The notes under the pieces were generated by a model. It searched no databases. It saw only the letters and a list, made by a program, of their open reading frames with translations, and was not told the origin of the DNA. From an uncultured Caldilineaceae bacterium (GTDB lineage Bacteria; Chloroflexota; Anaerolineae; Caldilineales; Caldilineaceae): DNA of 64,000 nucleotides. Below, piece after piece: positions 13,213-63,833 of the stretch (position 1 is its first letter; each line of letters starts with the position of its first letter). A program made the translations under genes and the position numbers. The DNA lies in contig OY282381.1 of NCBI GenBank assembly GCA_958295915.1, forward strand, positions 4,300,722-4,364,721. The letters are read 5' to 3'.

Positions 13213-13262
13213 CGCAGAGCGAGTAGTGAGGAGCGAGAAAAAAGAAGTGAGAGATGTTCTCT
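13213..13262. repeat. Dispersed palindromic repeat, family E (GTAGTGAGGAGCGAG)
   Basis: Starts AGTAGTGAGGAGCGAG and ends TTCTCTCCTC, which is its approximate reverse complement. Copies inserted in coding sequence are at 26115-26159 and 61936-61990. Confidence 0.7.
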
Positions 13263-58294: not shown

Positions 58295-58334
58295 ACAGCG
58301 TTCCCTTGCGTACCCTGACCGCCAAAGCTTCGAT

Positions 58335-60290: not shown

Positions 60291-61178
60291 ATGAGAGGTC
60301 AGAGTTACGAGTACACAGCAAAATCTGTAGACGCGGCCGTAGAGACAGGCTTGCGCCAATTGGGAGTTTCCCGCGAGCGGATCGAAATCGAAGTGCTCCA
60401 TGAAGGAAGCCGGGGCATTCTCGGTATAGGCGCCACGGATGCCCAGGTTCGCCTCACGCTCAAAGCCGCGGCTGTGTCGCCAGAAACGCATACGCAGACC
60501 GATGCCCCCGTGTCCACAGAGCCAGAATCGTCTCGCGTAGCAGAGACAGAAGAGCCTGCAGAGACAGAGGAGCCTGCAAATACAGTTGCGCCTGCAAATA
60601 CAGTTGCGCCTGCGCCAGCCTCTGAACAGACGCCCACCGCAGACAGCGCGCCGGCCCCCATGCAGGCAGGCGAAACCCAAGCTGATATCGAACTGAACCA
60701 GGAGGAGGACAACTCCGAGCTGGCGGATCTTGCCTACGATCTGCTCGCCCAAATGTTGCAACATTTGGGTATTCAGGCCGAGATCGAAGTCTCCTGGTTG
60801 GACAATCCAGAGAACAGCGACCGCCCGCTGAATTTGAATGTCATCGGTGATGATTTAGGCATTCTTATCGGCCGCAATGGCGAGACGCTCGCCAGCATTC
60901 AGTATATGATCCGCCTGATGGTCAATCAGAAACTGCGTCGCTGGATAAATATCGTCATCGATATCGACGGTTATAAGCAGCGACGAGCAGAGCAGCTGAC
61001 CCAGTTGGCCCACCGCCTGGCGGATCAGGTCATCGCCTCCGGTCGGCCTGTTTCGCTGGAACCGATGCCGGCGAGTGAACGCCGTTTGGTCCACATTGCG
61101 CTGCGCAACCACCTTCACGTGTACACCGCAAGCATTGGAGAAGACAACCGACGCAAAGTGCAGATCTTGCTCAAATAA
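60291..61178 (+). CDS. jag: RNA-binding protein KhpB/Jag
   Basis: 295 residues. Jag-N domain (YEYTAKSVDAAVETGLRQLG), an Ala/Glu/Pro linker (about 65-140), a KH domain around NVIGDDLGILIGRNGETLASIQ, and an R3H domain with RPVSLEPMPASERRLVHIALRNH. It binds RNA and influences cell division and envelope in Firmicutes. The linker contains short tandem duplications (ANTVAP twice). It begins 4 bp after yidC. Confidence 0.93.
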   Translation: MRGQSYEYTAKSVDAAVETGLRQLGVSRERIEIEVLHEGSRGILGIGATDAQVRLTLKAAAVSPETHTQTDAPVSTEPESSRVAETEEPAETEEPANTVAPANTVAPAPASEQTPTADSAPAPMQAGETQADIELNQEEDNSELADLAYDLLAQMLQHLGIQAEIEVSWLDNPENSDRPLNLNVIGDDLGILIGRNGETLASIQYMIRLMVNQKLRRWINIVIDIDGYKQRRAEQLTQLAHRLADQVIASGRPVSLEPMPASERRLVHIALRNHLHVYTASIGEDNRRKVQILLK

Positions 61179-61258: not shown

Positions 61259-63091
61259 ATGTCGATCGATTTTCTTGCAGTCGGAACCGTCAGCCGGGAC
61301 ATTGCGACGGCGGACCCCACCAGCGCCGAGTATGTACTCGGCGGCACCGTCAGCTTCGCCGCAGTCACCGCTGCCCGTTTGGGGCGCAGACCAGTGGTCC
61401 TCACCCGCGCCGGAGACGATATCGACTTGTCGCTCTTGCGCGCCCTGGCCGACGTTCACGTTCTGCCATCTAAGCATACAACGACATTCGCCAATCTGTA
61501 TACGCCAGACGGCCGCGTGCAGTACTGTTACACGCCATCGCCGCCAATCGCCGCCGAGGACGTTCCTCCTCGACTGAGGGTGCCTCATATCGCTCTCCTG
61601 GGACCGCTGGCGAATGAAGTCCTGCCGGAAGTAGCGCGTGTCTTCGACTCCAAAACAATCGTGGCCGCAGTGCCCCAGGGCTGGATGCGGCGATGGGATG
61701 CCGACGGTAGGGTGCATTCAGCGCCATGGACCAGCATGGCGGAGATCCTGCCCCACCTGGATGCGCTCATCCTGTCGATTGAAGACATCGACGGCGATCT
61801 GCGGCTGGTGGACGAATATCTGGAGTATATTTCGCTCGTTGTCATTACTGAATATCGGGACGGCAGCACCGTCTATCGTCGCAACGCTGCCACGAAAATC
61901 GACCAGGATCTAAGGATTGACAGGAAGATGCAGGCGATGAGTAGTGAGGAGCGAGAAAAGCGAAGTGAGAGCTGTTCTCTCTCTCCTCATAATATCGAGG
62001 TGATCCCCGTTCCACCGCGCCCGGCTGACGAACTTGATCCGACCGGAGCAGGGGATATATTCGCCACTGCTTTCTTGCTGAGGCTGGATGAGACCGGCGA
62101 CCCGCTGGACGCGGCCCGCTATGCCAATGTCACCGCTTCCTTCGGAGTAGAGGGCCAGGGCGTTTCCGGCATCCCAACCCATGAACAGGTGTTGGCCTAT
62201 ATGGCCCAGAATCCTTGGCAACCGGCGACGCGCGCCAGTAGCCAGCAACTGACCACGGGACACAGATCGCGGGCCACTGCTGTTCGCGGCATTCTGGAGC
62301 TGCCCATTGACGCCATTCAGGCGAATCCACACCAACCGCGCACCCTTTTTGACCCGGACAGCCTGGCCGAGTTGTCCGCCTCAATCCGGAAACATGGCGT
62401 CATCCAGCCCCTGATCGTTACCGAAAGCCCGAATCAGCCGCAGCGTTTCTGGCTGATCACCGGTGAACGCCGCTGGCGGGCAGCGCGGCAGGCCGGGATT
62501 CAGACTGTGCCGGTGATTGTGCGGGAGGCGACGCCTCAGCAGTTGCTGGAATGGGCCCTGGTGGAGAACCTGCAACGGGCCGATCTCAACCCTCTGGAGG
62601 AAGCGGCCGCCTACGCTACCTTGATGAATGAGTTCGACCTGACCCAATCGCAGGTGGCGGAGCGGGTGGGGAAAAGCCGCTCCGCAGTGGCCAACGCTGT
62701 GCGCCTTCTGAGCCTGCCAGCCGCAGCCCAAAATGCGCTAAACGATCAGCGTATTAGCGCCGGCCACGCGCGCGCTTTGCTCAGCCTGAAGAGTGATGCC
62801 GACAGACAGCGGGCCTTGAACCTGATCCTCGAACGGGAGTTGAACGTCCGTCAGACCGAAACGCTGGTCCGCCGCTGGATGGAGGAGCCGCCGGCGGCGG
62901 AACTGACGGAGGACCCGCCCCACATGCAGGCGCATGTACGCTTTTGGGAGAACCGCTTTCGTGACCGCCTTAGCACGAAAGTGAGCCTGGAGCGCCAGGC
63001 AGATGGCAGCGGCCGGCTCGTCATTCACTTTTTCAATGACGACGATCTGGAGACGATCTACCGGGAAATTCTCGGGGATGAGGATTGGTAG
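61259..63091 (+). CDS. PfkB-family carbohydrate kinase fused to ParB chromosome-partition protein
   Basis: 610 residues in one frame. Residues 1-320 are a PfkB-like sugar/nucleoside kinase: FLAVGTVSRD, GGTVSFAAVTAARLG and the C-terminal DPTGAGDIFATAF with catalytic Asp. Residues 340-610 are ParB: ELPIDAIQANPHQPR, the CTP/parS-binding GERRWRAARQAG, ENLQRADLNPLEEA and the helix-turn-helix SQVAERVGKSRSAVANAVRL. The usual ParB N-terminal GLGRGLDAL motif that stimulates ParA is absent. Residues about 216-244 in the kinase come from adjacent repeats of families D and E, and the joint (RASSQQLTTGHRS) resembles a family A repeat. No parA is visible. Confidence 0.9.
   Translation: MSIDFLAVGTVSRDIATADPTSAEYVLGGTVSFAAVTAARLGRRPVVLTRAGDDIDLSLLRALADVHVLPSKHTTTFANLYTPDGRVQYCYTPSPPIAAEDVPPRLRVPHIALLGPLANEVLPEVARVFDSKTIVAAVPQGWMRRWDADGRVHSAPWTSMAEILPHLDALILSIEDIDGDLRLVDEYLEYISLVVITEYRDGSTVYRRNAATKIDQDLRIDRKMQAMSSEEREKRSESCSLSPHNIEVIPVPPRPADELDPTGAGDIFATAFLLRLDETGDPLDAARYANVTASFGVEGQGVSGIPTHEQVLAYMAQNPWQPATRASSQQLTTGHRSRATAVRGILELPIDAIQANPHQPRTLFDPDSLAELSASIRKHGVIQPLIVTESPNQPQRFWLITGERRWRAARQAGIQTVPVIVREATPQQLLEWALVENLQRADLNPLEEAAAYATLMNEFDLTQSQVAERVGKSRSAVANAVRLLSLPAAAQNALNDQRISAGHARALLSLKSDADRQRALNLILERELNVRQTETLVRRWMEEPPAAELTEDPPHMQAHVRFWENRFRDRLSTKVSLERQADGSGRLVIHFFNDDDLETIYREILGDEDW
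61904..61930. repeat. Family D repeat inside the PfkB domain
   Basis: Identical in all 27 bases to 59148-59174. Read in frame as QDLRIDRKM, the same peptide as in the RnpA tail. Confidence 0.9.
61936..61990. repeat. Family E repeat inside the PfkB domain
   Basis: AGTAGTGAGGAGCGAGAAA to TTCTCTCTCTCCTCAT, in frame as MSSEEREKRSESCSLSPH. Directly follows the family D copy. Confidence 0.88.
62230..62262. repeat. Family A-like sequence at the kinase-ParB joint
   Basis: GCCAGTAGCCAGCAACTGACCAC resembles family A copies such as GGCAACTGACCACTGACC at 30670-30687. Assigned with caution since the match is short. Confidence 0.5.
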
Positions 63092-63155: not shown

Positions 63156-63833
63156 ATGCCTGAACAACGCAGCAATGTCCTGCAGACAGAACGAGAGTTG
63201 GTGGCCCAGATGCTGGAAGGAGTGGTGGCGGAGTTGCCGCAGGGGCTGGCGCAGTTCGTCCGCAGTGAAATGGCGGCGGAGCAGACCCTGGCGGGCATTG
63301 TGCTGGCCTCAGCGACCCCGAAATATGATTCAGCCGAGGCCGTGTCTCGTCGCGTGGCATTGGCCGCCGCATTGGAATTGCTGCAAATCGCCTTGAACAT
63401 CCACCGCTTGCTGCTGATCCCGGTCCAATCAGACACGATCGACAGATCCCTGCTGGGCGGCACGATTCTGGTGGGAGATTACTGCTTCAGCCGGGCTGCA
63501 GGTCTGGCGGCTCGCACCTGCCACCCGCAAGTGGTGATGGTCTTCGCAGAGCTGTTGAAAGAGGTAAGCGAAGTCAATTTGCGCCGGGTGATTAACCAGG
63601 AAACGTCTAGCCAGGATGCCATTGTCGCCGACGAGCGCGAGGTGCTTTTCCGTAGCGGCGCCTTGGCCGGTGTGCTGCTGGCAGGGCTGGGAGAGGAAGA
63701 ACAGACCCACGTCGCCAGATACGCATCCCACTTAAGCCGGCATGTGCCGCCGACGGACAGCCTGCCGCCACACCAGAAAGATCGCTGGCGCGTAGTCGTG
63801 TGCGTTCTGATAGCAAAGGTCAGTGGTCAATAG
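63156..63833 (+). CDS. Polyprenyl synthetase-like protein lacking Asp-rich motifs
   Basis: 225 residues. The segment GGTILVGDYCFSRAAGLAARTCHP and the following EVSEVNLRRV resemble the helix after the first Asp-rich motif of trans-prenyltransferases (usually VLAGDALLARAFELLA). Neither DDxxD motif is present, so it cannot be a standard prenyl synthase; it may be a non-catalytic subunit as in heterodimeric heptaprenyl synthases, or a relic. The last residues (KVSGQ) and stop come from a family A repeat. Confidence 0.55.
   Translation: MPEQRSNVLQTERELVAQMLEGVVAELPQGLAQFVRSEMAAEQTLAGIVLASATPKYDSAEAVSRRVALAAALELLQIALNIHRLLLIPVQSDTIDRSLLGGTILVGDYCFSRAAGLAARTCHPQVVMVFAELLKEVSEVNLRRVINQETSSQDAIVADEREVLFRSGALAGVLLAGLGEEEQTHVARYASHLSRHVPPTDSLPPHQKDRWRVVVCVLIAKVSGQ

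Follow-up and report, generated by a model that had tools for sequence, protein, structure and literature searches.

The chromosomal ParB proteins of ParABS systems (the Spo0J/Noc group) carry a CTP-binding domain, a helix-turn-helix (HTH) domain and a C-terminal dimerisation domain, and a motif at the ParB N-terminus binds and stimulates ParA (PMC12462528). In CTP-hydrolysis mutants of B. subtilis ParB, recruitment of SMC persists and ParABS segregation fails (PMC8494293), and in S. pneumoniae an orphan ParB without parA promotes SMC loading (PMC7022226). ParB-CTPase domain fusions, in which a ParB fold is linked to a second domain without parA nearby, have been surveyed; the serine kinases SerK and SbnI described there are ParB folds themselves, and the main text of the survey makes no mention of 'sugar' or 'carbohydrate' (PMC12704722).

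The window analysed here is a stretch of 64,000 nucleotides in which a sugar kinase gene of the PfkB type and parB form one continuous frame of 610 codons without a stop, as read from the window sequence. The features of the locus are listed below.

60291..61178, + strand: jag/KhpB gene with Jag_N, KH and R3H domains, the upstream neighbour and marker of the conserved locus; jag precedes pfkB in the closest relative (G012) as well
61259..63091, + strand: fused pfkB-parB gene, 610 aa, from the open frame and Pfam domains
61259..62221, + strand: PfkB/ribokinase-like kinase part, from alignment with 36 relatives, AlphaFold and Foldseek
61899..61934, + strand: family D repeat fragment inside the kinase, in frame, from repeat matches and its absence from sister kinases
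61939..61992, + strand: family E repeat (hairpin) inside the kinase, in frame, from repeat matches, a fold test and the low-confidence model loop 211-240
62222..62285, + strand: putative deletion joint in place of parA and the ParB N-terminus, from the homology break against G012 and a partial copy (~49 nt) of the dispersed CAGTAGCCAGCAACTG... repeat
62291..62575, + strand: ParB CTP-binding (ParB/Srx) domain with NPHQPR, GERRWRA and ENLQR motifs (PF02195, E 1e-31)
62582..62878, + strand: ParB HTH (parS-binding) domain (PF17762, E 2.7e-36)
62930..63067, + strand: ParB C-terminal dimerisation domain (PF23552)
63156..63833, + strand: 225-aa ORF, a conserved downstream neighbour with a homologue after parB in G012 and more in other sister loci

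Like the chromosomal ParB proteins, the fused protein has all three ParB domains, among them a ParB/Srx CTP domain with the family motif GERRxRA, and an exact parS is present in the genome; unlike the canonical system, a ParA gene and the N-terminal ParA-binding motif of ParB are missing, and the N-terminal part is a kinase plus linker of ~340 residues. Retention of ParB and parS without parA is shared with S. pneumoniae, whose ParB is an orphan gene and not a fusion, whereas the present loss, known from one genome, is tied to a deletion scar (PMC7022226). With the ParB-CTPase fusions the present protein shares the linkage of a ParB fold to a further domain, apart from parA; unlike SerK and SbnI, it is a ParB with HTH and dimerisation domains joined to a ribokinase fold (PMC12704722).

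The kinase occupies residues 1-321 and ParB residues 342-609. The Pfam domains follow in the order PfkB (247-303), ParB_N (345-439), HTH_ParB (442-540) and ParB_C (558-603), which bears out the earlier note in its view that PfkB is translationally continuous with ParB; the PfkB match is short because the kinase sequence is divergent and interrupted. The ParB half matches Spo0J, Noc and ParB in the PDB and retains the HTH and dimerisation domains together with the NPHQPR, GERRWRA and ENLQR motifs. The downstream 225-aa ORF had no match in Pfam or NCBIfam. A match to mad1 in a defence library (E 4e-4, 36 residues) was dismissed as too weak and short.

In the alignment with 36 relatives the kinase half retains the motifs GG and PQGWMRRWD and the catalytic DPTGAGD. 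AlphaFold modelling was confined to the kinase part (residues 1-335) and gave a pLDDT of 89 and a pTM of 0.87; the best Foldseek match of the model was the PfkB kinase TM0415 (E 6e-18), with the PPi-dependent myo-inositol kinase of the ribokinase family as a further neighbour. Judged from the model, with its ribokinase fold and catalytic GAGD, the kinase half is a member of the PfkB/ribokinase family. It shares the fold and the GAGD motif with the solved structures of TM0415, the PPi-dependent myo-inositol kinase and the M. jannaschii nucleoside kinase, and differs from them in its low identity (18-20%) and in a repeat-derived loop.

That loop is an insert of 32 residues, missing from every sister aligned, and consists of an in-frame family D copy of 33-36 nt followed by a family E copy of 54 nt. 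The earlier note was right about D and E fragments in tandem inside the kinase, for which it gave 29 residues. Further copies in the window lie at 58330, 58818 and 59143 (family D) and at 13221 (family E), and both families are dispersed repeats with dozens more copies across the genome. The insert probably leaves the kinase fold intact, since in the model it forms a low-confidence stretch (211-240) between two strands.

The joint is ~64 nt long and has no counterpart in G012: homology of the fused gene to this relative stops at 62221 and restarts near 62286. The partial repeat copy that makes up ~49 nt of it had its best match in the whole genome at 93% over 28 nt (E 7e-5), and several more short genomic copies are only ~73-93% alike. 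Repeats thus occur both at the joint and inside the kinase, as had been noticed before. Their description as palindromic holds for the family E piece, which folds as a hairpin (z -2.4 against shuffles), and fails for the joint copy, which gave no hairpin signal and folds no better than shuffles. In Rickettsia, palindromic elements are dispersed repeats inserted in frame in coding genes. The D and E pieces at 61899-61992 resemble them as dispersed repeats lying in frame in a conserved protein; the organism is unrelated, the likeness is one of placement in coding sequence, and a hairpin is found for E and none for the joint copy. Dispersed repeats would have remodelled coding genes here in two ways, by inserting in frame into the kinase gene and by occupying the point where two genes were fused.

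The genome of the window is a single 5.06-Mb contig, 99% complete. Among named relatives, Caldilineaceae MAGs come nearest to it; they belong to a group that we take to be sponge-associated. In every same-genus relative that holds the locus, pfkB, parA and parB are three separate genes in this order. The sister ParB proteins have the motif GLGRGLGALL ~16 residues from the start, and this motif is missing from the fusion. From the PfkB 'PW' to the ParB 'NPHQPR' the distance is 1090-1180 nt in 12 sisters versus 105 nt in the fusion, a net loss of ~1.0 kb that corresponds to the whole of parA and ~46 N-terminal ParB residues, GLGRGLGALL included. Because of the ancestral order, the shortening by ~1 kb and the homology break at the joint, comparison of the loci indicates that the fusion arose by deletion of parA from a pfkB–parA–parB locus. 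The earlier note had correctly reported the loss of the ParA-stimulating motif and had overlooked the deletion of parA at the locus; since parA is deleted here and found nowhere else in the genome, the motif loss is better taken as part of one event than as a separate specialisation of ParB. Open frames of 917-997 residues in G001 and G007 were considered as further fusions and excluded, as a TAG stop follows pfkB and parB is separate.

As proposed in the earlier note, the fusion was sought in related genomes and parA and parS in the rest of the genome. We searched 396 genomes of the class with a query that ran from the C-terminus of the kinase into the N-domain of ParB. Among the matches listed, only that in the genome of the window extended across both halves, each of the others being confined to the kinase or to ParB; in such a listing a genuine fusion should outscore single-sided matches. 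The fusion is thus known from one genome only. pfkB and parB were already near-neighbours in the operon, and a deletion suffices to explain it.

A search of the genome with sister ParA found no ParA beyond distant matches, the best being a MinD-like protein at 595686 (28% identity, E 8e-10) that is also present in the sisters. The next match, at 1924661, is partial, and others, one of them at 4400062, are weaker. From their sequence motifs we take these three to be MinD, Mrp and CpsD-like proteins. Apart from G010, all same-genus relatives searched have a true ParA match at E 1e-132 or better, besides similar secondary matches. Relocation of parA elsewhere in the genome was rejected, only the distant MinD/Mrp/CpsD-like matches having been found. 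G010 was not accepted as another instance of parA loss; as jag and ParB are missing there along with ParA, the absence of the locus is probably an assembly gap.

The fused ParB is the sole HTH_ParB protein in a search of the genome, so the idea of a second ParB that would make it expendable was rejected. One exact parS, TGTTTCACGTGAAACA, lies at G000:C1:2646974 (L154:12975) in a conserved neighbourhood common to G010 and G011 and near gyrB (named from sequence); it is the only site within 2 mismatches in the genome. ScpA is present. Most same-genus sisters have two parS sites, ~12-13 kb apart in most cases with both on one contig. In G012, with parAB on contig G012:C5 (L158), no parS was found within 2 mismatches, and this genome has a second, weak ParB-like protein (G012:C40:25020).

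Relative-rate counts (Tajima-type) for the genome of the window versus G012 were 21.4 versus 16.0 for ParB and 17.8 versus 25.7 for PfkB, with YidC, Jag and the downstream 225-aa ORF as controls. By these counts neither half shows clear acceleration relative to G012. Such unaltered rates could mean that constraint persists, or that the fusion is too young for decay to show.

Beside the observed anatomy, ancestral order, exact parS, ScpA, conservation of both halves and absence of another recognisable ParA we set the following reading, to which we give a probability of about two in three: a deletion of parA welded pfkB to parB, and the resulting ParB, free of ParA, probably still works by way of parS and SMC and carries the kinase as a passenger. 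A net deletion of ~1.0 kb would have taken away the stop codon of pfkB, the spacer between pfkB and parA, the whole of parA and the first ~46 parB codons, joining the flanking pfkB and parB in frame; it probably took place at copies of a dispersed repeat or between them. We infer that the repeat took part either by recombination between copies or by insertion with deletion. The fusion would be made as a single chain, form a CTP-dependent clamp that loads at parS, and recruit SMC-ScpAB; it would mark the origin region at parS, and ParA-driven movement of the origin would be gone. The kinase would be an N-terminal passenger that may retain its own activity. Given the B. subtilis mutants (PMC8494293) and the S. 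pneumoniae orphan ParB (PMC7022226), the fusion probably keeps its role at parS and in loading condensin without ParA. Provided that the organism truly carries this locus, a single deletion took ParA together with its contact segment in ParB and spared the rest of ParB, a natural test of ParB, parS and condensin without ParA in a group in which nearly all genomes examined keep parA.

The strongest competitor, though clearly less probable, is that the chromosome keeps parA and the assembly collapsed two copies of the repeat into one or traced a rare molecule that carries the deletion. The genome is probably metagenome-assembled, like its relatives, the repeat sequence sits exactly at the joint, and the fusion is seen in a single genome. 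However, the contig is single and nearly complete, the 64 nt of the joint are unlike either flank in G012, repeat copies this short and divergent are a poor target for collapse, and the frame remains open through the joint.

Somewhat less probable still, at long odds, is a recent loss that is heading for decay, with an impaired fusion and a partition system that is disappearing from the lineage. The absence of parA and of the ParA-binding motif would fit, as would one parS-like site versus the two usual in sisters, and six changes in the fused ParB at sites invariant in 14 sisters (0-4 in the other sequences). Against it stand the lack of any stop or frameshift, the retention of all CTP and HTH motifs and the lack of a clear rate acceleration.

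We consider it improbable that the kinase senses a nucleotide or sugar state and thereby tunes clamp loading or localisation of a tethered ParB, and just as improbable that a ribokinase-fold enzyme in a ParA-free partition protein gates ParB clamp loading or positions the centromere complex instead of ParA. The catalytic motifs of the kinase are intact and fusions of ParB-CTPase folds with other domains are frequent (PMC12704722), but the fusion is seen in a single genome, its linker is repeat-derived and the old gene order already accounts for the choice of partner. Production of two proteins, by internal initiation or by cleavage in a disordered joint, is the least credible alternative: the confidence of the kinase model is low beyond residue ~320, but no Shine-Dalgarno sequence precedes the in-frame GTG/TTG/ATG starts at 62189, 62192 and 62201, and between 62201 and the ParB domain there is no start except CTG.

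In most Anaerolineae loci examined (L067-L131), parA is preceded by a divergent PfkB-like kinase in which the motif PQGWMRRWD is invariant, and homologues of this type of kinase also occur in Sorangium and in other phyla.
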